From contig CAJFGR010000006.1 in the NCBI GenBank assembly GCA_904377845.1, forward strand, positions 17,092 through 81,091: a stretch of 64,000 nucleotides of DNA, given 5' to 3'. Source of the DNA: an uncultured Ruminococcus sp. (lineage in GTDB: Bacteria; Bacillota; Clostridia; Lachnospirales; Lachnospiraceae). Positions 50,212-63,904 of this stretch are shown here, in pieces; positions within the stretch are counted from its first letter, which is position 1, and the number at the start of each line of letters is the position of its first letter. Under the pieces are notes generated by a model. That model made no database searches, was not told the DNA's origin, and saw only the letters and a program-made list of their open reading frames with translations. The position numbers and the translations under genes were made by a program.

Positions 50212-50251
50212 CAGAGAGAAAAAGAGGCGTTATGCAGGGAGAATGAAGCAG

Positions 50252-51748
50252 ATGGAGAAGATAAGTGGACGGATCAGGAAAATCATGTACAGAGAGAAAC
50301 TGCTAGATCTGGGACGGACGGCGGCGATCGTACTGGCGGCAGCTCTTATCGGTCTTTACCTGAACCGTGCCGGAGTCATGAAAGAAAACATCCTGATGGT
50401 ACTGCTGATCGGCGTGATCCTGACAGGCGCCTTTACGGCGGGATATGAGTACGGCGTGATCGGGGCGGTGGCAAGTGTGCTGATCTTCAACTATTTCTTC
50501 ACCGTGCCGGTCCATACATTTGCGATCATGAATCCGGACGATGTGGTGCTGATGATCTTTTTCCTGATCGTATCGTTCATCTCGTCGGCGATGACGGCGC
50601 GTTTCCGCAGGCAGGTGGCGATCGCGGAGGAAAATGAAAGGACAGCCCGACGTATGTCGGAACTCTCGGAGCGCTTTATCAATGTCACGGGAACGGAACG
50701 GATCACGGAACTTGGCCTTTCCTATATCAAAGAAAATACCGGCTATGATGCTGCCGTCAGGCTGGACGGACACAGTACAGCCGGACAGCCGGACACGGCA
50801 GGGGCGGTCCTGTTCCCGATCAGAGGCATTGCCCGTAAGACGGGAGAGATCATTGTCTTTACGAAAGACCGGGGGCTTGGTGCGGAGCAGGAAATTTTCA
50901 TACGCGCCGTGGCGGGGCAGATGGGGATCGCTCTTGACCGGGAGAGGATCTATGAGAAGCAGGAGAAGACGAAGCTTCAGGTAGAGCGGGAGCATCTGAA
51001 GAGCAGTATGCTGCGCAGCATATCCCATGACTTCCGGACGCCGCTGACGGGGATCATCGGCGACTGCGACCTGATCCTGCAGCGTCATGTGACCGGGCCT
51101 GAAGAGCAGGATGAGCTTTTAATGGATATCCGGGAACAGAGTATGTGGCTGACCCGCACGATGGAGAATATCCTGAGTATGACGAAGATCGAGAGCGGCG
51201 CGGATTTTATCAGCAGGAGAGAAGAAGTGGTGGAAGACCTTGTGTATGAGGCGGAGAGCCATGTGAGCGGACTCAGGGAACACAGGAGATTTCAGGATTC
51301 CATGCCCGAAGAAGTGCTGATCGCGGATGTGGACGCAAGGCTGATCGTGCAGGTGCTGGTAAACCTGTTGGATAATGCGGTAAAGCATACGAAAGAGAAC
51401 GGACTGATCCGGCTGAATGTGTCGTATCAGGACGGCAGGGCGTACTTTGTCGTGGAGGATAACGGACCGGGGATCGAGCCGGGGCAGGAGGAGACGATCT
51501 TCGGAGAATTTGTCTCCCTTGCAGGCAGAGGACCCGACCAGAAGCACGGGATGGGGCTGGGGCTTGCCATATGCAGGGAAGTCGTAAAGGCCCATGGAGG
51601 CGAGATCCGTGCGGAGAACCGGCCGGAGGGCGGAGCCAGATTTGTCTTCTGGCTGAATGCGCAGCCGGCAGTACAAATGGAAGAAATGGAAGAAGAATAC
51701 GGGGGAACAGAACGGGATGGAAGAGAAGCAGACCATATTGATCGTTGA
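50252..51748 (+). CDS. kdpD: short KdpD-like sensor histidine kinase lacking the N-terminal KdpD/USP domains
   Basis: 498 residues. Four membrane helices of DUF4118 type (about 20-115, with FNYFFTVPVHTF), a GAF-like domain (about 145-245), phospho-His259 in SISHDFRTPLTG, and ATPase boxes NLLDNAVKHTKENG, VEDNGPGIEP and GMGLGLAICREVV. Full KdpD is about 900 residues and has a cytosolic N-terminal half that senses K+/c-di-AMP; that half is absent. ATG 50252 has GGGAGA at usable spacing; 50243 overlaps it. The regulator gene overlaps its end. No kdpFABC is in the window. Confidence 0.88.
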   Translation: MEKISGRIRKIMYREKLLDLGRTAAIVLAAALIGLYLNRAGVMKENILMVLLIGVILTGAFTAGYEYGVIGAVASVLIFNYFFTVPVHTFAIMNPDDVVLMIFFLIVSFISSAMTARFRRQVAIAEENERTARRMSELSERFINVTGTERITELGLSYIKENTGYDAAVRLDGHSTAGQPDTAGAVLFPIRGIARKTGEIIVFTKDRGLGAEQEIFIRAVAGQMGIALDRERIYEKQEKTKLQVEREHLKSSMLRSISHDFRTPLTGIIGDCDLILQRHVTGPEEQDELLMDIREQSMWLTRTMENILSMTKIESGADFISRREEVVEDLVYEAESHVSGLREHRRFQDSMPEEVLIADVDARLIVQVLVNLLDNAVKHTKENGLIRLNVSYQDGRAYFVVEDNGPGIEPGQEETIFGEFVSLAGRGPDQKHGMGLGLAICREVVKAHGGEIRAENRPEGGARFVFWLNAQPAVQMEEMEEEYGGTERDGREADHIDR

Positions 51749-52403
51749 GGACGACAAATACATTATCCATTTTATATCGATGAGCCTGAAGGAAGAGAAC
51801 TATACATTCTGGACGGCAAAGTCCGTAAAAGAGGCGTTAAGCCTTTTCTATGCCAACCGGCCGGATCTGGTGATCCTCGATCTGGGACTGCCGGACGGCG
51901 ACGGTCTGGACGTGGTCAGAAGTATCCGGGAGATCGCTTCCACCCCGATCATCGTTGTGTCGGCACGGCAGGAGGAACCGGAGAAGATAAGGCTTCTGGA
52001 TGCCGGAGCAGACGATTATGTGACAAAGCCGTTCTATATGGGAGAGCTTCTGGCGAGGATCCGCGCCGCCTTAAGAAAAAGGGAAAACCGTCCTGCGGAT
52101 CAGGACTTGCGCTTTACAGACGGGGATCTTCTTGTGGACTACGAAAGACGGCGTGTGGAAGTGGACGGACAGGAAGTCCATCTCACGCCCATCGAGTATA
52201 AGATCCTGCTCCTTCTGATTGCCAACAGGGGGAAAGTCCTGACACATCATTATATCTTAAAAGAAGTGTGGGGATATGCAGAGGGCGTGGAGGCAGGAAC
52301 CCTGCGTGTGTTCATGGCGACTCTCCGCAGGAAGATCGAGAAGAATCCGTCCCGGCCGCAGCATATCATTACGGAAGTAGGCGTGGGATACCGGTTTAAA
52401 TAG
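51717..52403 (+). CDS. kdpE: KdpE-like response regulator (OmpR family)
   Basis: 228 residues. Receiver domain with EDD at 11-13, phospho-Asp55 in VILDLGLPDGDG and Lys in YVTKPF; winged-helix domain (about 130-226) with HLTPIEYKILLLLIANRGKV and RVFMATLRRKIEKNP. ATG 51717 has GGGGGA 10 bases upstream; the start lies inside the kinase gene, overlap 32 bases. It pairs with the short KdpD. Targets may include potassium transport genes elsewhere or the direct-repeat promoter at 49620. Confidence 0.9.
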   Translation: MEEKQTILIVEDDKYIIHFISMSLKEENYTFWTAKSVKEALSLFYANRPDLVILDLGLPDGDGLDVVRSIREIASTPIIVVSARQEEPEKIRLLDAGADDYVTKPFYMGELLARIRAALRKRENRPADQDLRFTDGDLLVDYERRRVEVDGQEVHLTPIEYKILLLLIANRGKVLTHHYILKEVWGYAEGVEAGTLRVFMATLRRKIEKNPSRPQHIITEVGVGYRFK

Positions 52404-55234: not shown

Positions 55235-55972
55235 TCAAAGATCATTATGGACTGACAGTCCCTTTGTCAGTGCTTCCAGTATATCATAAATTTCTCCTGA
55301 CCTTGCATAAAGCTGATATTCCGGTTCATGGATATCCTGAAGATAATGAGCGTCGGAGCAGCAGATCACATTGCAATTCTCAAAATATGGGTGCTCACGC
55401 CTGATCCGGTGGAGATTTTTAAAGTCATGGAACTCCGCGCAGGTAAACGTACTGCCGGGAGGTACGAAGCCAAGATTGGAGAGCAGGCTCGTGGAAGCCT
55501 TATCCACATGGGCGGGATATGCGATGCCCTGGAAGGATCCAACCAACGGGAACACATCGTCGAAAGAGATAGAAGTAGCATTGATGAGGAGATTTTTCAC
55601 AGTTCCGGTCACTTCGTCTCTCTCATCCATGATCTGCTGCTTCCCGAAGATATCTTCCCGGTTTGGAAACGGCAGCAGCTTCTCATATATAAGGGCGTCA
55701 AAGCGAAGGGCGTCATCCAGCGTGGGAAAGAGGCAGATTACATGAACTTCTTCCTGGGTTGTCAGTTCCATGCCGGGGATCACGGTCACGCCGTACTTTT
55801 CTCCGTGGTATATGGCGGCGGGACAGTTCCTGCAGGAATTATGGTCTGTAAGGGCAATCACGTCCAGCCCTTTGACCGCGGCCATCCCTACAATATTGGC
55901 GGGGGTCATGTCATCGTCCCCGCAGGGGGAGAGGCAGGAGTGGATATGCAGATCATAATAGAGCGGGATCAT
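55235..55972 (-). CDS. PHP-domain phosphoesterase
   Basis: 245 residues; metal-binding motifs YYDLHIHSCLSPCGD, ALTDHNSCRN, HVICLFPT, YPAHVDKAS and CCSDAHYLQDI belong to the PHP (polymerase and histidinol phosphatase) family. Last gene of the minus-strand operon with two DRTGG proteins, an ATPase-fold protein and a sensory-type hydrogenase. Such PHP genes recur beside this hydrogenase type; a role in nucleotide or protein dephosphorylation is inferred. Start overlaps the preceding stop (ATGA). Confidence 0.85.
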   Translation of the reverse strand: MIPLYYDLHIHSCLSPCGDDDMTPANIVGMAAVKGLDVIALTDHNSCRNCPAAIYHGEKYGVTVIPGMELTTQEEVHVICLFPTLDDALRFDALIYEKLLPFPNREDIFGKQQIMDERDEVTGTVKNLLINATSISFDDVFPLVGSFQGIAYPAHVDKASTSLLSNLGFVPPGSTFTCAEFHDFKNLHRIRREHPYFENCNVICCSDAHYLQDIHEPEYQLYARSGEIYDILEALTKGLSVHNDL

Positions 55973-56301
55973 GATTCGCCCGCCTCGTGGATCTCGAGGG
56001 CAATATCAAAGACCGGAAGCTCCGTTGCGAGTATGGCGATCCCTTCCTCTTCGGCCTTTTCCAGAGTCCCCTCATCCATCCCTATGCCCTCTGCCAGTAC
56101 GATACAGGCCACGTCCGCAAGGGTGGCTACGGCGAGGGTGTTTTTGTTTCCCATGACAGTGACCCAGACGCTGTCGGCAGGGGCCTTTCCCATAGCGATG
56201 CTCAAAAGATCGCAGCAGAATACTTTTGATATCTCACGTGTTGGATCTCCTTTTACCAGAACTTTGCATTCCGGAAGTTCCAGTACAGTCTGTAATTTCA
56301 T
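55969..56301 (-). CDS. DRTGG-domain protein (second copy)
   Basis: 110 residues; DRTGG-like alpha/beta fold with KVFCCDLLSIAMGKAPADS, VWVTVMGNKNTLAVATLAD and EEGIAILATELPVFDIA. DRTGG domains are associated with CBS and kinase-like sensors and probably bind a ligand. It lies 50 bases after the hydrogenase-like gene and overlaps the PHP gene. It is similar in plan to the DRTGG gene that starts the operon. Confidence 0.8.
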   Translation of the reverse strand: MKLQTVLELPECKVLVKGDPTREISKVFCCDLLSIAMGKAPADSVWVTVMGNKNTLAVATLADVACIVLAEGIGMDEGTLEKAEEEGIAILATELPVFDIALEIHEAGES

Positions 56302-56351
56302 ATGTCATGACCTCTCTTTCTTTTTATGCCCGGCAGACAGAAACCTGATGA

Positions 56352-57764
56352 TCAGTTCTGTCCGGAGCGCCGGTAGTTTCCCGGCACTCCGAATGAGGCC
56401 AGCTCCGTGGTCAGTTCTTTGATATATCTGCGGAGCATTTCATCTTCCTCCTCGGACAACGGCTTTCCGGTTTTCTCGCCCTGTGTCAGCGACTCGATCT
56501 TCTGGGACAGGTCGGCGATATTGGAACGCAGGACGTAGATACAGTCGTTAGGGGTCGCTTCCCCGCGCACGATATCCTCAGCCAGTGTCTGGCAGGTCGG
56601 AGCTCCGCAGGAGCCGCAGTCAAGTCCCGGGAACCGGGCGGTCAGTTTCTCTACGTCGCTCATCATTTTCAGGCTTTCCTTGAATGTATTTCCAAGGCGG
56701 AAGACGGGCTCGTATTCGATATCGTCCGCCCAGTATATATTCCGGAGTTCTGGAGTGTCATCGAGATGATTTTTCGACACGGGCTGATATTTCGTCAGGC
56801 GTTTTGTCTTTGCCATGGCGATGTAGGCGTTCTCCACGGTGAGCGTGCCGCCGACACAGCCGCCGCTGCAGGCGTTCAGCTCTACGAATGTGAGCCCGTG
56901 GAGTTTCTCGTCTTCGAGTTCCTCCAGCACTCTTAAGATATTTACGATGCCGTCCGCCGCAAGGTAGCTGTCCGTGAGAAGACCGCCCGCCTCTCCGCCT
57001 GCATTGCTCCAGCCGATGCCGATGCGTCCGGAATGGGAGAGCGGCTTTAACTGGCTCTCGTCATGTTTCATATGGGGCAGCAGGAGCGGATATACATCTT
57101 TGATCGCTACTACATTGTCGATATTGCTTTTTTCGATCCCGAGAGGAGCTTTTGCGTAGGATACTTTGGACGGGCAGGGCGATATAAAGATGATGCCGAT
57201 CTCCTCCGGCTTCAGCCCGGTCTTCTTCATCGCCTGCGCCCGTGCGATCTCCGCCGCAGCCTCCACCGGCGCTTTGATGGGCAGGAGACGGGAGATAAGT
57301 GCGGGAAATTTCACCCGGATCAGCCGGATCACGGACGGACAGGCGGAGCTGATAAAAGGCGCTTCGTCCATATGCTGCTTGATATATGATCTGGAAGCCT
57401 CGGACACCAGTTCCGCAGCCGCGCTCACCTCATATACATCGTCAAAGCCTAGCTTCAGCAGCGCATTTAACACAATATCTGTATTTGTCAGATTATTATA
57501 CTGCGCATAGAGCGACGGCGCAGGAAGAGCAACCGTATATTTGAAATTATTTATAACGGAGAGCGGATCATATACCGGAATCTTGGCGTGGTGCGGGCAG
57601 TAGCGGATGCAACGGCCGCAGTCGATGCAGAACTTATCTATGATATGCGCCTTGCCGTTATGCACGCGGATCGCCTGGGTGGGGCAGTACTTGATGCAGT
57701 TGATGCAGCCCTGGCAGGCGGATTCCCTAAGCCTTACGGAACGTATGAATTTGTTTGTGCCCAC
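56352..57764 (-). CDS. sensory-type [FeFe] hydrogenase-like protein (HydS/group C-like)
   Basis: 470 residues. N-terminal double [4Fe-4S] ferredoxin (Cys17/20/23/27 and 46/49/52/56), then an H-cluster domain (about 75-345) with divergent motifs: SSACPSV where catalytic enzymes have TSCCPxW, SPCPSKVSYA, and LNACSGGCVGG. All four cluster cysteines remain, but the proton-relay Cys position is Ala. About 370-435 is a further Fe-S domain (DCGSCGAPTCQTLAEDI, then a distal Cys). There is no PAS domain. The operon context (HATPase, DRTGG, PHP) favours sensing or regulation over bulk H2 production. Confidence 0.85.
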   Translation of the reverse strand: MGTNKFIRSVRLRESACQGCINCIKYCPTQAIRVHNGKAHIIDKFCIDCGRCIRYCPHHAKIPVYDPLSVINNFKYTVALPAPSLYAQYNNLTNTDIVLNALLKLGFDDVYEVSAAAELVSEASRSYIKQHMDEAPFISSACPSVIRLIRVKFPALISRLLPIKAPVEAAAEIARAQAMKKTGLKPEEIGIIFISPCPSKVSYAKAPLGIEKSNIDNVVAIKDVYPLLLPHMKHDESQLKPLSHSGRIGIGWSNAGGEAGGLLTDSYLAADGIVNILRVLEELEDEKLHGLTFVELNACSGGCVGGTLTVENAYIAMAKTKRLTKYQPVSKNHLDDTPELRNIYWADDIEYEPVFRLGNTFKESLKMMSDVEKLTARFPGLDCGSCGAPTCQTLAEDIVRGEATPNDCIYVLRSNIADLSQKIESLTQGEKTGKPLSEEEDEMLRRYIKELTTELASFGVPGNYRRSGQN

Positions 57765-57778
57765 AGACAGTTCCTCCT

Positions 57779-58201
57779 TTACAGATTGACTTTCATTGTG
57801 ATCGTTGTCCCCTGTCCTACTACAGTGTCGATATGCATCTCATCGGAATACCGTTTCATATTCGGAAGCCCCATCCCCGCCCCGAAGCCGAGGGAGCGCA
57901 CTTCTTCCCGGGCAGTGGAGAATCCTTCCTGCATGGCCTGCTCGATGTCGGGGATGCCGGGACCTGTATCCGCAAGGATCATGGTAATGTCCTTATCCGA
58001 TATTGTGACCGTGATGGTGCCGCCGTCCGCGTGGATGACCATATTGATCTCTCCCTCATACATGGCGATCGCTGTTTTGCGGATGACGTCGCTGCTGACG
58101 CCCAGCATCTTCAGCTTGTTTTTGACAGAGCTGCTGGCCTCGCCCGCACGGGTAAAATCATTTCCGTCGATGACATAAGTAAAGACAAGCTGATCCCCCA
58201 T
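57779..58201 (-). CDS. anti-sigma-type HATPase protein
   Basis: 140 residues; GHKL ATPase fold with N-box-like AIAMYEGEINMVIHA, G1 ILADTGPGIPD and GFGAGMGLPNMKRYSD. RsbW/SpoIIAB-like proteins of this size are serine kinases or anti-sigma factors. It abuts the DRTGG gene (0 bases) and lies 14 bases before the hydrogenase-like gene, so it probably passes on or gates the sensor signal. Confidence 0.85.
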   Translation of the reverse strand: MGDQLVFTYVIDGNDFTRAGEASSSVKNKLKMLGVSSDVIRKTAIAMYEGEINMVIHADGGTITVTISDKDITMILADTGPGIPDIEQAMQEGFSTAREEVRSLGFGAGMGLPNMKRYSDEMHIDTVVGQGTTITMKVNL

Positions 58202-58546
58202 TCAGGCACCTCCTCTGAGTCCGTTTTCATACAGGATGCCGCAGGTGGTGAACATATAATGCTTCGTGGCAAGAACGGCGATAGACTTGCCTCTCGCCAG
58301 CGCCAGCATATTTTCATCCGGCATCTTGCCGCGGACGAAGATAATGCAGCAGATATCGAGCATCTCAGCTGTGCGTACGACCTGCGGATTGCAGAGACCG
58401 GTGATGAGTACGGAACATTTCCCGCAGTATGCAAGGACGTCGCTCATCATATCCGCTGAAAAAACAAACTGTGCATCTAAGTCGGCAAGTTCCTCGCCGT
58501 ACAGAAACTGTGCGTCAAGCACTTTCTGCATATCTCTGATCGTCAT
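58202..58546 (-). CDS. DRTGG-domain protein (first gene of the sensory operon)
   Basis: 114 residues; DRTGG fold with FVFSADMMSDVLAYCGKCS, VLITGLCNPQVVRTAEMLD and SIAVLATKHYMFTTCGILY. ATG 58546 is chosen because GGGAGG is just upstream; the longer frame to 58585 would start inside the leader hairpin. It has a promoter at 58630-58658. Confidence 0.82.
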   Translation of the reverse strand: MTIRDMQKVLDAQFLYGEELADLDAQFVFSADMMSDVLAYCGKCSVLITGLCNPQVVRTAEMLDICCIIFVRGKMPDENMLALARGKSIAVLATKHYMFTTCGILYENGLRGGA

Positions 58547-58581
58547 AAGCCCTCCCAAAAGATCAAAACCGAACATTGACT

Positions 58582-58619
58582 GCATCGGCCCGGCTGCCGG
58601 AAACAGGCGGCGCCGATGC
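58582..58619 (-). promoter_or_regulatory. GC-rich hairpin in the leader of the sensory operon
   Basis: GCATCGGC and GCCGATGC (perfect 8 bp) enclose a second stem GCTGCC/GGCGGC. It lies between the transcription start (about 58623) and the first ATG (58546) of the minus-strand operon. No U-run, so control or stability is more likely than termination. Confidence 0.6.
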
Positions 58620-58629
58620 TGTTTCAGTC

Positions 58630-58658
58630 AGTATAACATCTGGATATGGAAAAGACAA
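58630..58658 (-). promoter_or_regulatory. promoter of the sensory hydrogenase operon
   Basis: On the minus strand TTGTCT (58658-58653), 17-base spacer, TATACT (58635-58630). Confidence 0.7.
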
Positions 58659-58674
58659 TAATTGCATAAACAGA

Positions 58675-58694
58675 AATAGTATAATGATACTATT
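58675..58694. promoter_or_regulatory. operator-like palindrome between the two hydrogenase operons
   Basis: AATAGTAT-AATG-ATACTATT, perfect 8-bp arms with a 4-base centre. It lies just upstream of the minus-strand promoter and within the shared control region. It does not match the Rex consensus (TTGTTAAN4TTAACAA). Confidence 0.6.
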
Positions 58695-58812
58695 AGCGGA
58701 AAATTCAGTAAAAAAATATACAATAATAAAATAGACGGAATTTTCATACTTTTAAGTGGCGTATCGGCATATCGTGTGATATCATTGTTTTAATGAGCAT
58801 ACAATGGGCGGG

Positions 58813-58847
58813 AGTCCGGGCCGCACTGTCCTCAGGACCGGGCTTTT
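58813..58847 (+). terminator. terminator-like hairpin in the hydC leader (possible attenuator)
   Basis: AGTCCGGGCC and GGACCGGGCT pair with two G-U pairs, 12-base loop, followed by TTTTG. It stands only 27 bases before the hydC ATG. A TACAAT box (58800-58805) just upstream could be a -10 but lacks a good -35; if transcription starts further up, this hairpin could attenuate the hydrogenase operon. Confidence 0.55.
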
Positions 58848-58873
58848 GCCAAAGCAGAATTGGAGGGTGAAGA

Positions 58874-59368
58874 ATGACAGCTAAGAAAGGAACCGTTCCG
58901 TTTGCCGGAACGAAAGAGCAGGAGGAGGCTCTCGCGAAAGTGATCGATGAGCTCCGGGATGAAAAGGGAGCTCTCATGCCGATCCTGCAGAAAGCACAGG
59001 ACATATACGGATATCTTCCCTATGAGGTCCAGAAGATGATCTCAGATCAGACCGGCATCCCTCTGGAGAAGATCTACGGTGTCACCACATTTTATTCGCA
59101 GTTTACTTTGAATCCGAAAGGCAGATACAGGATTTCTGTCTGTCTTGGTACGGCGTGCTATGTGAAAGGCTCCGGAGATATCTACAATGCTCTGATGGAG
59201 AAGCTGGGCATTGAGGGCGGCCAGTGTACGCCGGACGGAAAGTTCTCACTGGATGCGTGCCGATGCGTGGGAGCCTGCGGACTCGCACCGGTCATGATGG
59301 TCAATGATGAAGTCTACGGACGACTGACGGTGGACGACATTGACGGTATCCTGGCGAAGTACGAATAA
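58874..59368 (+). CDS. hydC: NADH dehydrogenase NuoE-like subunit of trimeric hydrogenase (HydC)
   Basis: 164 residues; thioredoxin-like [2Fe-2S] subunit with VCLGTACYVKG and CRCVGACGLAPVMMVND supplying the cluster cysteines. It passes electrons between the HydB flavin subunit and HydA in NAD-linked, electron-bifurcating hydrogenases. GGAGG lies 9 bases before the ATG. First gene of the plus-strand operon; an ATPase-fold gene follows by 3 bases. Confidence 0.92.
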   Translation: MTAKKGTVPFAGTKEQEEALAKVIDELRDEKGALMPILQKAQDIYGYLPYEVQKMISDQTGIPLEKIYGVTTFYSQFTLNPKGRYRISVCLGTACYVKGSGDIYNALMEKLGIEGGQCTPDGKFSLDACRCVGACGLAPVMMVNDEVYGRLTVDDIDGILAKYE

Positions 59369-59371
59369 GCT

Positions 59372-59932
59372 ATGATGCCGGAAATTTCTCTGAATATTCT
59401 GGATGTTGCCGAAAATTCTGTGCGGGCAAAAGCGTCGCTGATCGAGATCACAGTGTCCGTAAAGACGAAAGAAGATACGCTGACTGTCATTATCCGGGAC
59501 AATGGATGCGGGATGACGGCAGATCAGGTAAAACGCGCACAGGATCCGTTTTTTACAACAAGGACGACGAGAATCGTAGGCCTCGGGCTTCCGTTTTTTA
59601 AGCAGGCAGCGGAGAGCACGGGAGGGACATTCGGGATTGAGTCGGAAAAAGGAATAGGAACTATTGTAAAAGCAGTATTTATCTTATCTCATATTGACAG
59701 GATGCCTCTGGGGGATATCAGTTCCACCATACATACGCTGATCGTGTTCAACGAACAGATCGATTTCAAGTATATTTATGAATATGACGATAAGAGTTTT
59801 ACACTGGATACCCGGGAAATGCGGGAGATGCTGGGCGATGAGATTTCATTTATGGAGCCCGAGGTATCGCTGTTTATCTGGGAGTATCTGGATCATAACA
59901 AGCAGGAGACAGACGGCGGGACTGATATTTAA
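59372..59932 (+). CDS. HATPase-fold protein of the hydrogenase operon
   Basis: 186 residues. Histidine-kinase-like ATPase fold: NILDVAENSVRAKA (N-box), IRDNGCGMTADQV (G1), DPFFTTRTTRIVGLGLPFFK (F and G2 boxes). No phospho-acceptor domain; a C-terminal extension (about 110-186) has no family I recognise. Such genes recur between hydC and hydB in Clostridia; their role is unsettled. It has no clear ribosome site, so it probably depends on coupling to hydC. Confidence 0.83.
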   Translation: MMPEISLNILDVAENSVRAKASLIEITVSVKTKEDTLTVIIRDNGCGMTADQVKRAQDPFFTTRTTRIVGLGLPFFKQAAESTGGTFGIESEKGIGTIVKAVFILSHIDRMPLGDISSTIHTLIVFNEQIDFKYIYEYDDKSFTLDTREMREMLGDEISFMEPEVSLFIWEYLDHNKQETDGGTDI

Positions 59933-59954: not shown

Positions 59955-60335
59955 ATGAAATCTCTTGAAGAATTACGCGCAATCCGCGCAAAAATGCAGG
60001 GAAAGGTCGGAGTGCGCGCGGAAAATGAAAATCAGATCCGTGTGGTCGTGGGAATGGCGACCTGCGGAATCGCAAGCGGAGCAAGACCGGTCCTGACAGC
60101 GCTTTCTGACGCGGTTCAGGAACAGAATCTGAGCGAAAAGATCTGTGTGACACAGACCGGCTGTATCGGGCTGTGTCAGTACGAACCTATCGTGGAAGTA
60201 ATGGAACCGGGAAAAGAAAAAGTAACTTATGTGAAGATGACTCCCGAGAAGGCTCTGGAGGTGCTGCGTCTTCATCTGATCGGCGGGCAGGTAGTGACGA
60301 AATACACTCTGGGCGCTGCACAGAACAGTCTGTAG
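59955..60335 (+). CDS. thioredoxin-like [2Fe-2S] ferredoxin of the hydrogenase operon
   Basis: 126 residues; MATCGIASGARP and TQTGCIGLCQYEPIVEV hold the four cysteines of a thioredoxin-like [2Fe-2S] ferredoxin. It resembles the N-terminal domain of the following HydB. GGAGGA precedes ATG 59955. A longer overlapping frame from 59778 is spurious, as it lies over the ATPase gene. It may shuttle electrons for the complex. Confidence 0.88.
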   Translation: MKSLEELRAIRAKMQGKVGVRAENENQIRVVVGMATCGIASGARPVLTALSDAVQEQNLSEKICVTQTGCIGLCQYEPIVEVMEPGKEKVTYVKMTPEKALEVLRLHLIGGQVVTKYTLGAAQNSL

Positions 60336-60373
60336 GAAACAGGCGGAACACAGAGAAAAGGAGGCATGAAAAT

Positions 60374-62161
60374 ATGTATCGTTCACACGTGCTTGTCTGC
60401 GGCGGAACCGGATGTACCTCTTCCGGCAGCCAGCGGATCCGGGAGAGACTGGAAAAAGAAATCGCGGCCAACGGGCTGTCTGAAGAAGTCGGTGTTGTCA
60501 AGACCGGATGTTTCGGACTGTGCGCCCTCGGCCCGATCATGATCGTATATCCGGAAGGAACTTTCTATTCTATGGTTCAGGAGGACGACATCCCCGAGAT
60601 CGTCTCTGAACATTTGCTGAAGGGAAGAGTTGTCACGCGTCTGCTCTATGATGAGACGACCAAGACAGACAAGATCATTCCGCTTAATGAGACGAATTTC
60701 TATAAGAAACAGCACAGGGTAGCGTTGAGAAACTGTGGTGTGATCAACCCTGAGAATATTGAAGAATACATCGGAACCGGCGGCTACGAGGCGCTGGGCA
60801 TTGTGCTCACAGAGAAGACTCCGGAGGACGTGATCCAGATCCTTCTGGACAGCGGTCTGAGAGGAAGAGGCGGCGCCGGATTCCCCACAGGATTAAAGTG
60901 GAAGTTTGCCGCGGCAAATGAAGCAGACCAGAAATATGTCTGTTGCAATGCAGATGAGGGAGACCCGGGAGCATTCATGGACCGTTCCATCCTTGAAGGT
61001 GATCCTCATGCTGTGCTGGAGGCAATGGCTATCGCGGGATATGCGATCGGAGCATCGCAGGGATATATCTACGTGCGCGCCGAGTATCCCATCGCAGTAA
61101 AACGTCTTGAGATTGCTATAAATCAGGCGAGAGAATACGGACTGCTCGGGGAAAATATATTTGACAGCGGCTTTAATTTTGATATTGAACTAAGACTCGG
61201 CGCGGGAGCATTTGTCTGTGGAGAGGAAACAGCGCTCATGACGTCCATAGAAGGAAACAGAGGCGAGCCCCGCCCCCGCCCGCCGTTCCCGGCGCTGAAG
61301 GGTCTTTTCCAGAAACCGACCATCTTAAACAACGTGGAAACATTTGCAAATATTCCGCAGATCATCGTAAACGGTCCGGAATGGTTTGCATCCATGGGAA
61401 CGGAAAATTCAAAAGGGACGAAAGTATTCGCTCTGGGCGGTAAGATCCACAATACAGGCCTTGTGGAAGTTCCCATGGGGACGACGCTCCGGGAAATCGT
61501 GGAAGAGATCGGAGGCGGCATTCCGAACGGCAAGAAATTTAAGGCTGCCCAGACCGGCGGACCGTCCGGCGGATGTATCCCCGCAGAGCATCTGGATGTG
61601 CCCATCGATTATGACAACCTGAAGAAGATCGGATCCATGATGGGCTCCGGCGGACTGATCATTATGGATGAGGATACCTGCATGGTGGATATCGCAAAGT
61701 TCTTCCTCGAATTTACCGTGGATGAGTCCTGCGGCAAATGTACGCCCTGCCGGATCGGTACGAGGCGTATGCTGGAGATCCTTGAAAAGATTACAAAAGG
61801 TCAGGCAACCATGGAAGATCTGGATAAGCTGGAAGAGCTCTGTTATCATCTGCAGTCCAGTTCGCTGTGCGCCCTCGGCCAGACAGCGCCCAATCCGGTG
61901 CTCTCTACACTGCGTTATTTCAGGGATGAATATATCGCCCATATTGTTGACAAGAAATGTCCGGCGGGAGTCTGTAAGGACCTGCTGCAGTTTAAGATCG
62001 ATCCGGATAAATGTAAGGGATGTACGCTCTGCGCGAGAACCTGTCCTGCGGATGCGATCATCGGCTCGGTAAGGGAAGTACATATGATCGACTCCGAGAA
62101 GTGCCTGAAATGCGGCGCCTGCATAGAGAAATGCCGGTTCGGCGCGATCTATAAAGAATAA
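60374..62161 (+). CDS. hydB: NuoF-like flavoprotein subunit of trimeric hydrogenase (HydB)
   Basis: 595 residues. N-terminal thioredoxin-like [2Fe-2S] domain (CGGTGCTSSG, TGCFGLCALGPI); NuoF core with GRGGAGFPTGLKW (FMN/NAD site), CCNADEGDPGAFMDRS, GAGAFVCGEETALM; SLBB domain; ESCGKCTPCRIGTRR cluster; C-terminal double [4Fe-4S] (CKGCTLCARTC, CLKCGACIEKC). It is the NAD(H)-reacting, electron-bifurcating subunit. ATG 60374 has GGAGG 9 bases upstream. HydA follows by 15 bases. Confidence 0.94.
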   Translation: MYRSHVLVCGGTGCTSSGSQRIRERLEKEIAANGLSEEVGVVKTGCFGLCALGPIMIVYPEGTFYSMVQEDDIPEIVSEHLLKGRVVTRLLYDETTKTDKIIPLNETNFYKKQHRVALRNCGVINPENIEEYIGTGGYEALGIVLTEKTPEDVIQILLDSGLRGRGGAGFPTGLKWKFAAANEADQKYVCCNADEGDPGAFMDRSILEGDPHAVLEAMAIAGYAIGASQGYIYVRAEYPIAVKRLEIAINQAREYGLLGENIFDSGFNFDIELRLGAGAFVCGEETALMTSIEGNRGEPRPRPPFPALKGLFQKPTILNNVETFANIPQIIVNGPEWFASMGTENSKGTKVFALGGKIHNTGLVEVPMGTTLREIVEEIGGGIPNGKKFKAAQTGGPSGGCIPAEHLDVPIDYDNLKKIGSMMGSGGLIIMDEDTCMVDIAKFFLEFTVDESCGKCTPCRIGTRRMLEILEKITKGQATMEDLDKLEELCYHLQSSSLCALGQTAPNPVLSTLRYFRDEYIAHIVDKKCPAGVCKDLLQFKIDPDKCKGCTLCARTCPADAIIGSVREVHMIDSEKCLKCGACIEKCRFGAIYKE

Positions 62162-62176
62162 GGGAGGGCAGTGAGA

Positions 62177-63904
62177 ATGGAAAATGTAAATTTAAAGATA
62201 AACGGCCTGAATGTAACTGCACCCGCAGGTTCTACGATCCTGGCGGGAATCCGTATCCCTACGCTGTGCTATTTAAAAGAGATTAATGAGATCGGCGCCT
62301 GCCGCATGTGCGTGGTGGAAGTAAAAGGAGCGAGAAATCTGGTGGCAGCGTGTGTCTATCCGGTTTCCGAAGGCATGGAAGTGCTGACGAATACGAAGAA
62401 GCTGCTGGATTCCAGAAGGAGAACGCTGGAGCTGCTCCTGTCCAACCATGATAAGAAATGCCTCTCCTGTGTGCGAAGCGGGCATTGTGAACTTCAGGAA
62501 CTCTGTCAGGAACTGGGCGTGACGGATGAGGATTATTTTGCAGGCGAATCGCCCCATTATGAGCTGGATGAGAGCGCGGTACATATGGTGCGGGATAACA
62601 ACAAGTGCATCCTCTGCCGGAGATGCTCTGCTGTGTGTGAAAAAGTACAGAGCGTGGGCGTTATCGGACCGAATAACAGAGGATTTGCCACATTTATCGG
62701 TTCCCCGTTCAATATGGGACTGGGGGATACGAGCTGCGTATCCTGCGGACAGTGCATCGCCGCCTGTCCTACCGGAGCACTCTATGAGAAAAGCAATATT
62801 GACGACGTGCTGGAAGCGATCGCCGATGAGACGAAACACGTGGTCGTTCAGCCCGCTCCGTCCGTGCGCGCGGCGCTTGGCGAAGAGTTCGGCTATCCTA
62901 TGGGAACAGACGTAGAAGGCAAGATGGCGGCGGCTCTCAGGAGGATCGGATTTGATAAAGTGTTCGATACAGACTTCAGCGCTGACCTTACCATCATGGA
63001 GGAAGCACATGAATTTATTGACCGCGTGCAGAACGGAGGCGTCCTGCCGATGATGACATCCTGCTCGCCGGGATGGATCAAATACTGCGAGCACTATTAT
63101 CCGGATCAGCTGGCGCACCTGTCCAGCTGCAAGTCGCCCCAGCAGATGTTCGGAGCCATCACCAAGACATATTATGCAGAGAAGATGGGAATCGCTCCAG
63201 AAGATATTGTATGCGTCAGTGTTATGCCGTGTACGGCGAAGAAATTTGAGCTTCAGAGAGACGATCAGTATGCGGCGGGAGTGCCGGATGTGGACATCTC
63301 CATCACAACACGCGAACTGGCGCGTCTGATCCGCAAAGTGGGAATCGATTTCCGCAGTCTGCCGGATGAGGGATTTGACGATCCTCTCGGTGAATCTTCA
63401 GGCGCAGGCGTCATCTTCGGAGCGACCGGAGGCGTGATGGAGGCAGCCCTGCGTACGGCTGTGGAGACACTTACGGGAGAGACTCTGGAGAAGGTTGAGT
63501 TCATGGAAGTGCGCGGCACAGACGGTATCAAAGAGGCTACCTACAACGTAGCAGGGACAGACGTGAAAGTCGCAGTTGCCTCCGGACTTTCCAACGCAAA
63601 GGCCATCATGGACAAAGTGCGTTCCGGTGAGGCGGACTATCACTTTATCGAGATCATGTGCTGCCCGGGCGGCTGCGTAAACGGCGGCGGCCAGCCTCAG
63701 GTACACGCAGATGTGCGCAACTTCACGGATGTAAAGGCAGTGCGCGCGAAAGCCCTCTATGATAATGATGCGGCAAAGACGATCAGAAAGTCCCATGAGA
63801 ACCCGTCTATCAAGAGAGTATACAGGGAATATCTGGGCGCGCCGGGAAGCGAGAAGGCACACCATATACTGCATACAAGTTACGTAAAACGAACCATTAA
63901 TTAA
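62177..63904 (+). CDS. hydA: catalytic [FeFe] hydrogenase subunit HydA
   Basis: 575 residues. N-terminal plant-type [2Fe-2S] domain (PTLCYLKEINEIGACRMC), His-ligated cluster (CLSCVRSGHCELQELC), two [4Fe-4S] (CILCRRCSAVC, CVSCGQCIAAC), then the H-cluster domain with TSCSPGW (Cys296; the canonical motif is TSCCPxW), MPCTAKKFE and EIMCCPGGCVNGGGQP. It produces or oxidises H2. ATG 62177 has AGGGAGGG 8 bases upstream. Oddity: after GSTIL the text runs straight to AGIRIPT, where relatives, as I recall them, have about five more residues (EAAR-like helix), suggesting a small in-frame deletion near 62243. Confidence 0.93.
   Translation: MENVNLKINGLNVTAPAGSTILAGIRIPTLCYLKEINEIGACRMCVVEVKGARNLVAACVYPVSEGMEVLTNTKKLLDSRRRTLELLLSNHDKKCLSCVRSGHCELQELCQELGVTDEDYFAGESPHYELDESAVHMVRDNNKCILCRRCSAVCEKVQSVGVIGPNNRGFATFIGSPFNMGLGDTSCVSCGQCIAACPTGALYEKSNIDDVLEAIADETKHVVVQPAPSVRAALGEEFGYPMGTDVEGKMAAALRRIGFDKVFDTDFSADLTIMEEAHEFIDRVQNGGVLPMMTSCSPGWIKYCEHYYPDQLAHLSSCKSPQQMFGAITKTYYAEKMGIAPEDIVCVSVMPCTAKKFELQRDDQYAAGVPDVDISITTRELARLIRKVGIDFRSLPDEGFDDPLGESSGAGVIFGATGGVMEAALRTAVETLTGETLEKVEFMEVRGTDGIKEATYNVAGTDVKVAVASGLSNAKAIMDKVRSGEADYHFIEIMCCPGGCVNGGGQPQVHADVRNFTDVKAVRAKALYDNDAAKTIRKSHENPSIKRVYREYLGAPGSEKAHHILHTSYVKRTIN

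Follow-up and report, generated by a model that had tools for sequence, protein, structure and literature searches.

What does a five-gene block that faces the hydABC operon of an uncultured Ruminococcus sp. (a gut bacterium; Lachnospiraceae, Clostridia) do with a hydrogenase that has lost its relay cysteine? The window analysed here is a stretch of 64,000 nucleotides (GCA_904377845.1, contig CAJFGR010000006.1, positions 17,092 to 81,091, forward strand); the block occupies 55235-58546 on its minus strand, in the transcription order DRTGG1, HATP1, HydS, DRTGG2, PHP, divergent from hydC-HATP2-Fdx2-hydB-hydA. The block is real and widespread and is best read as an H2/redox-signalling module, each signalling step of which we infer. 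That it is a module dedicated to the bifurcating/NADH-dependent HydABC, with an RsbT-like kinase as its output, is the reading to which we lean, with a confidence somewhat better than even. All five genes named by a first-pass annotation of the bare letters were found in place, with Pfam matches behind every domain, including the two DRTGG proteins and the PHP phosphoesterase.

58202-58546, minus: DRTGG1, DRTGG-domain protein of 114 amino acids (Pfam DRTGG 2.8e-9), start at M14.
57779-58201, minus: HATP1, GHKL ATPase of 140 amino acids, SpoIIAB/RsbT serine-kinase type (HATPase_c 1.3e-12), candidate output.
56352-57764, minus: HydS, predicted group D (M2e) [FeFe] hydrogenase of 470 amino acids (Fe_hyd_lg_C 2.9e-30; FeS 3.9e-13; ferredoxin clusters).
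55969-56301, minus: DRTGG2, DRTGG-domain protein of 110 amino acids (Pfam 1.2e-5), homologue of DRTGG1.
55235-55972, minus: PHP, PHP-family metallo-phosphoesterase of 245 amino acids (Pfam 2.8e-9), metal ligands intact.

DRTGG1 abuts HATP1, 14 bases separate HATP1 from HydS, and PHP shares 4 bases with DRTGG2; from this tight spacing a single transcript is likely. A further in-frame ATG at 58585 is possible for DRTGG1; related genes start at the M14 position.

The motif SSACPS spans HydS residues 139-144 and places Ala (A141) at the relay position, while all cysteines of the clusters are kept: four of the H-cluster, eight of the N-terminal clusters and the C-terminal Cx2Cx4Cx16C (C383, C386, C391, C408). 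A motif census thus confirms the combination of Ala and complete cluster cysteines that had first drawn attention to the protein. In an alignment of 180 group D proteins that includes the one from the window, the H-cluster cysteines are complete (4/4) in 180/180, and the relay position holds Ala in 161, Ser in 6, Asp in 5, Asn in 3, Thr in 2, His, Leu and Phe in 1 each, and Cys in none. Ala at this position is a trait of group D and not a peculiarity of the window. The equivalent of M353 is S195 in the window (Ser 119, Thr 60, Ala 1 in the same alignment). The marks of group D described for T. mathranii HydS (TamHydS) are loss of C299, replacement of M353, a C-terminal Cx2Cx4Cx16C and absence of a PAS domain (PMC8163306, PMC13104023). 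No PAS domain was found in the window HydS by Pfam scan, as the first-pass annotation had said. Seven of the eight TamHydS group D residues (R30, R32, K35, K58, D378, E392, D393, D403) are present, with His for R32, as matched by motif spacing and without a TamHydS alignment. A tree of 45 hydrogenases joins the 20 rows labelled D in a single clade (100/100), separate from A, B and PAS-type C; the group labels were assigned in this analysis, and the tree contains no named TamHydS reference row. Judged by its motifs, the window HydS is a group D (M2e) protein like T. mathranii HydS, not a PAS-bearing one of group C. A kinship with Thermotoga HydS, the protein that had been named for comparison, is not supported: that type carries PAS, and the same genome encodes a separate PAS-bearing HydS. 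The closest named relative is from Mediterraneibacter catenae (93% identity); no HydS relatives were found on the viral contigs searched.

How firmly the other four genes belong to HydS was followed over 180 loci (80 named loci, 99 loci from 196 genomes of the class, and the window). The group D set of the class comprises 99 places at E <=1.1e-81 plus the window's own genome, listed matches with E values of at least 2.5e-42 being left out as group A/C-like; one genome with two HydS places (G188) was counted once, and 99 genomes have HydS. Within 2.5 kb on either side and on the HydS strand, DRTGG1 is present at 173/174, HATP1 at 175/175, DRTGG2 at 170/177 and PHP at 164/175 loci (loci cut too short are excluded from the denominators; the window is counted). 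The recurrence of these four neighbours is far beyond chance. Counted by genome, HydS occurs in 99 of the 196, HATP1 in 98 (97 with HydS), DRTGG1 in 98 (97) and PHP in 96 (96). The lone genome with HATP1 and without HydS (G132) has a contig that stops 12 bases past HATP1, and in the two with HydS and without HATP1 (G049, G084) HydS lies at a contig end; PHP is absent from three (G037, G071, G177). Gene fusions among the five families, sought as a sign of contacts, were not found in the 180 loci. Further neighbours fall into four clusters present in at least 10 loci, none a clear regulator: by eye, a doubtful open reading frame (20 loci), a membrane-protein-like start (16), an ABC-ATPase-like start (15) and a metabolic-looking protein (11). 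Since neighbours were clustered at an E-value of 1e-8, small or fast-evolving regulators may be missed. Outside the phylum, Parabacteroides distasonis carries the same gene order plus HATP2 as a six-gene block (L239:6638-10409), with Phe at the relay position of its HydS (SSFCP); the record is labelled plasmid and carries gyrA.

To which protein would HydS pass its signal? A separate ATPase had been named as the probable output, and HATP1 supports this as the near-invariant partner of HydS. Its model (predicted local distance difference test, pLDDT, 92.1) is matched best by the fold of SpoIIAB (1til, template modelling score 0.81) and then by RsbW, and the anti-sigma factor SpoIIAB is the best match in PDB and NCBIfam searches. 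In a Lysinibacillus plasmid operon, the HATP1 profile scores 55.5 bits to the protein preceding PP2C-STAS-rsbW-sigB versus 17.3 bits to RsbW; going by gene order, the former stands at the rsbT position. The profile also scores 58.8 bits to a protein of Paraburkholderia that is named 'anti-sigma regulatory factor' and has a SpoIIE phosphatase as its neighbour. The fold is of the GHKL type, with N-box Glu/Asn and the G1 and G2 boxes, and the ATP-site residues E49, N53, D78, G80 and G82 (D78xGxG) and the motif GFGAGMG are invariant in 175 rows. These scores and motifs make it probable that HATP1 is active as an RsbT-type kinase. Given its RsbT-like score and intact ATP site, the original label of 'anti-sigma-like' ATPase is too narrow: an ATPase of SpoIIAB/RsbT type is indeed present, and it stands nearer to the RsbT-position protein than to RsbW. 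The search for a target sigma factor that had been suggested is not supported as the main path, for the same reason and because no sigma factor recurs in the HydS neighbourhoods (180 loci, clustering as above).

Partners of the usual kind were sought as well. Two STAS matches turned up in the genome to which the window belongs. One is SpoIIAA, encoded in one operon with SpoIIAB and sigma F (open reading frames read by eye), and the other lies within a frame of 725 amino acids; no RsbS-like STAS partner was found in this genome (rated 98.87% complete), nor did a Pfam scan find stressosome RsbR/RsbS STAS proteins in the five-gene operon. As the only small STAS protein found is the SpoIIAA of the sigma-F operon, the DRTGG proteins become candidate partners of HATP1. 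The model of DRTGG1 (pLDDT 89.7) is closest to 2ioj (DRTGG) and 3l31/3l2b (CBS-DRTGG pyrophosphatase); a STAS fold for DRTGG1 was considered and rejected, the fold being DRTGG. DRTGG2 matches DRTGG1 by profile (probability 98.3). Each has an invariant Ser, S48 of DRTGG1 (numbering of the 127-amino-acid form; 173/173), at the start of a helix in the model, and S34 of DRTGG2 (169/169). In PHP, residues H9, H11, H44, E69, H77, H155, D207 and H209, which we take to be metal ligands, are conserved in 100% of 164 rows, and the nearest named families are nucleotide/RNA-type phosphoesterases.

The other side of the divergence is the catalytic hydrogenase operon, as had been supposed; NCBIfam and Pfam matches confirm hydABC.

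58547-58873: divergent intergenic region, with a candidate hydS-side promoter (scan).
58874-59368, plus: HydC, NuoE-like subunit (NCBIfam HoxE/NuoE matches).
59372-59932, plus: HATP2, second GHKL ATPase, within the hydABC operon (HATPase_c 2.7e-15).
59955-60335, plus: Fdx2, thioredoxin-like 2Fe-2S protein of 126 amino acids (open reading frame, starting at the methionine of MKSLEELRAIR).
60371-62161, plus: HydB, NuoF-like subunit (Complex1_51K 1.9e-46).
62171-63904, plus: HydA, catalytic group A6 [FeFe] hydrogenase (NF040763, 907.4 bits, cut-off 765).

Of the HydS genomes, 94/99 match a group A HydA at 1e-100 or better, and HydA reaches at least 700 bits in 88/99 (among the matches listed). 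Of the 99 class loci, 49 have the block ahead of hydC and in the same direction, 12 have it nested between hydC and hydBA, 3 have it after hydBA, in 2 it is divergent, and 18 are truncated; the divergent arrangement of the window is found in 57/80 named loci. Fisher tests of HydS with HydA, and of groups C and D, take no account of relatedness and do not count as proof here. The sensor-type hydrogenase that had been tied to hydABC is upheld as a member of a family held to be putatively sensory, with a near-invariant ATPase partner.

HATP2, a histidine-kinase-like ATPase without a phospho-acceptor domain, is present in 106/196 class genomes, 97 with HydS (of 99) and 9 without; at 20 loci from genomes that lack HydS and have a high-scoring HydA it was seen in 6 and not in 14, some of these stretches being short. 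In the intergenic region, a scan places a candidate hydS-side promoter at 58658-58630 (minus; -35 TTGTCT, 17-base spacer, TGnTATACT), in a block conserved among the relatives aligned; in appearance it is a common sigma-A promoter of the extended -10 type. On the hydABC side, a conserved block at 58760-58790 contains the palindrome TGATATCA (58777-58784), exact in about half of 11 aligned regions and a possible operator. Rex control was rejected: with what we take to be the Rex consensus, no Rex-like site was found in the divergent region, and the whole window had 2 matches (<=3 mismatches) against 1.68 expected. Elsewhere in the window, a sensor kinase and response regulator at 50243-52403 appear KdpD/KdpE-like by eye.

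The mechanism that we favour would run as follows. HydS would be a hydrogenase of low turnover, the state of its H-cluster reporting H2 or redox poise; a change in its shape would gate HATP1, the putative RsbT-like serine/threonine kinase encoded just before it; HATP1 would phosphorylate or sequester a partner, most likely the two DRTGG proteins because no STAS partner is co-encoded; PHP would be the phosphoesterase opposing HATP1; and hydABC expression or HydABC activity would be adjusted as the outcome. Several observations weigh against this. Among the matches listed, 27 genomes have a HydA of at least 700 bits and no HydS, no hydABC lies within 7 kb at 15/99 class loci, and the Parabacteroides distasonis block has none alongside. 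PHP enzymes act mainly on small phosphoesters, and the G037 locus is complete except for PHP, so that PHP can be lost. The conserved Ser of DRTGG1 and DRTGG2 may be structural and is therefore no proof of phosphorylation. Finally, TamHydS still turns over H2 in vitro (PMC8163306), and its C-terminal cluster is reported to be unresponsive to H2 (PMC13104023).

Three other readings of the same genes were weighed. PHP could itself be the output, making or destroying a nucleotide-type messenger bound by the DRTGG proteins, with HATP1 a mere scaffold or activator; the invariant metal ligands, the nucleotide/RNA-type relatives of PHP and the closeness of DRTGG1 to DRTGG domains, including that of the CBS-DRTGG pyrophosphatase, agree with this, but the ATP site of HATP1 is complete and HATP1 is present at all 175 testable loci, whereas PHP is missing at 11/175, and we regard the proposal as unlikely, if worth keeping in view. 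The activity of TamHydS (PMC8163306), together with conservation of all clusters and H-cluster ligands, would also suit a HydS that is an accessory of HydABC for redox or electron transfer at a low rate, the other genes serving its assembly or upkeep; replacement of the relay Cys in 180/180 proteins, a kinase-like ATPase as constant partner and the lack of any other strongly recurrent gene nearby make such a role quite improbable. Improbable to much the same degree is a HATP1 that acts as a true anti-sigma factor, the view to which the first-pass annotation leaned, and that would release its sigma factor upon a signal from HydS: SpoIIAB is the best PDB and NCBIfam match, yet the RsbT-position protein is nearer than RsbW, no sigma factor recurs among the neighbours, and the hydS promoter resembles the ordinary sigma-A type.

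Returning to the kinase-output module, a possible counterpart lies elsewhere in the same genome, where a group C HydS with a PAS domain lies on contig C12 (L236:1923-4879), a SpoIIE-family phosphatase coming after it; this HydS retains the relay Cys (TTCCPS) and has LGPC. Group C HydS matches (1e-60) occur in 64 of the 196 genomes, SpoIIE-type neighbours (1e-25) in 59 and both in 58; the phosphatase is directly downstream on the same strand in 55/64. Both groups are present in 42 genomes; 22 have group C without D and 57 have group D without C, so that group D does not need group C. Muricomes intestini (L045) and Blautia schinkii (L046) have a hydABC operon flanked by both types: the group D block faces it, and a group C HydS with its phosphatase comes after it. 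A fragment of a group C HydS stands in this place after hydABC at the edge of two further loci (L040, L043), and in one genome (G096) the phosphatase gene precedes DRTGG1 at a distance of 46 bases. These arrangements suggest, at most, two arms, one with a kinase and one with a phosphatase. A STAS-free two-arm partner switch for H2 sensing in Clostridia, in which group D HydS would gate the RsbT-like kinase and group C HydS the SpoIIE-type phosphatase, with HydABC output set by DRTGG phospho-switch proteins on which both enzymes act, is a tentative and rather unlikely extension. Coexistence of groups C and D, with possibly different responses (PMC10407848), and a serine phosphatase within the PAS-hydrogenase hfs operon (PMC11837493) have been described. 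A long hydrogenase-like type of about 880 amino acids (frames of ~870-920, including L247), distinct from the 570-amino-acid group C form, was also seen; five genomes that match only through it have no SpoIIE neighbour. Contig C21 of the window's genome (L235:2053-5065) carries a tandem pair of [FeFe] hydrogenase-like genes, given the label of group B here, shortly before an alanyl-tRNA synthetase-like gene (named by reading only).

That group D is sensory has been proposed since 2012, on the grounds of nearby kinases and bifurcating hydrogenases (PMC3561251), and the same gene order was noted in Thermoanaerobacter (PMC3608648); the route of the signal was left open, being posed as a question in 2020 with mention of a histidine-kinase-like ATPase (PMC8163306). 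The present analysis adds the near-inseparable gene set, the RsbT-like identity of the ATPase, the DRTGG candidates and the pairing of group C with SpoIIE. No link between RsbT and hydrogenases was found in titles and abstract openings of the open literature, and an earlier description elsewhere is possible; 'sensory hydrogenase' with SpoIIE gave no match in the open literature, and DRTGG and hydrogenase are barely co-mentioned in its accessible parts (one mention of each). A near-invariant RsbT-like kinase partner makes signal transfer directly testable and names a likely route from an H2/redox signal to control of the main hydrogenase in such bacteria. This bears on the way in which Clostridia, those of the gut and those of interest for biofuel, control H2 and redox state. 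If true, partner switching would be extended to a system without STAS proteins.

Among known systems, TamHydS is of the same group; in the window the module is divergent from hydABC, and the M497 position is Asn, not Leu. Thermotoga maritima HydS (group C/M2f) is alike in its lost relay Cys and additional C-terminal cluster (PMC8163306) and differs in having the PAS domain of group C, whose rows stand in a clade separate from the window type in the tree. AF1212, the C. perfringens CBS-DRTGG pyrophosphatase and the HprK N-domain share the DRTGG fold; the window DRTGG proteins differ as stand-alone paralogues, two in number and tied to HydS. The CBS-DRTGG pyrophosphatase is presumably nucleotide-regulated. 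HATP1 shares kinase fold and motifs with the partner-switch kinases RsbT and SpoIIAB, and in the O2-sensing stressosome a gas-sensing protein likewise controls an RsbT kinase (PMC4976288). Compared with stressosomes and partner switches, the window operon has DRTGG and PHP proteins in place of STAS, and its sensor would be an [FeFe] hydrogenase.

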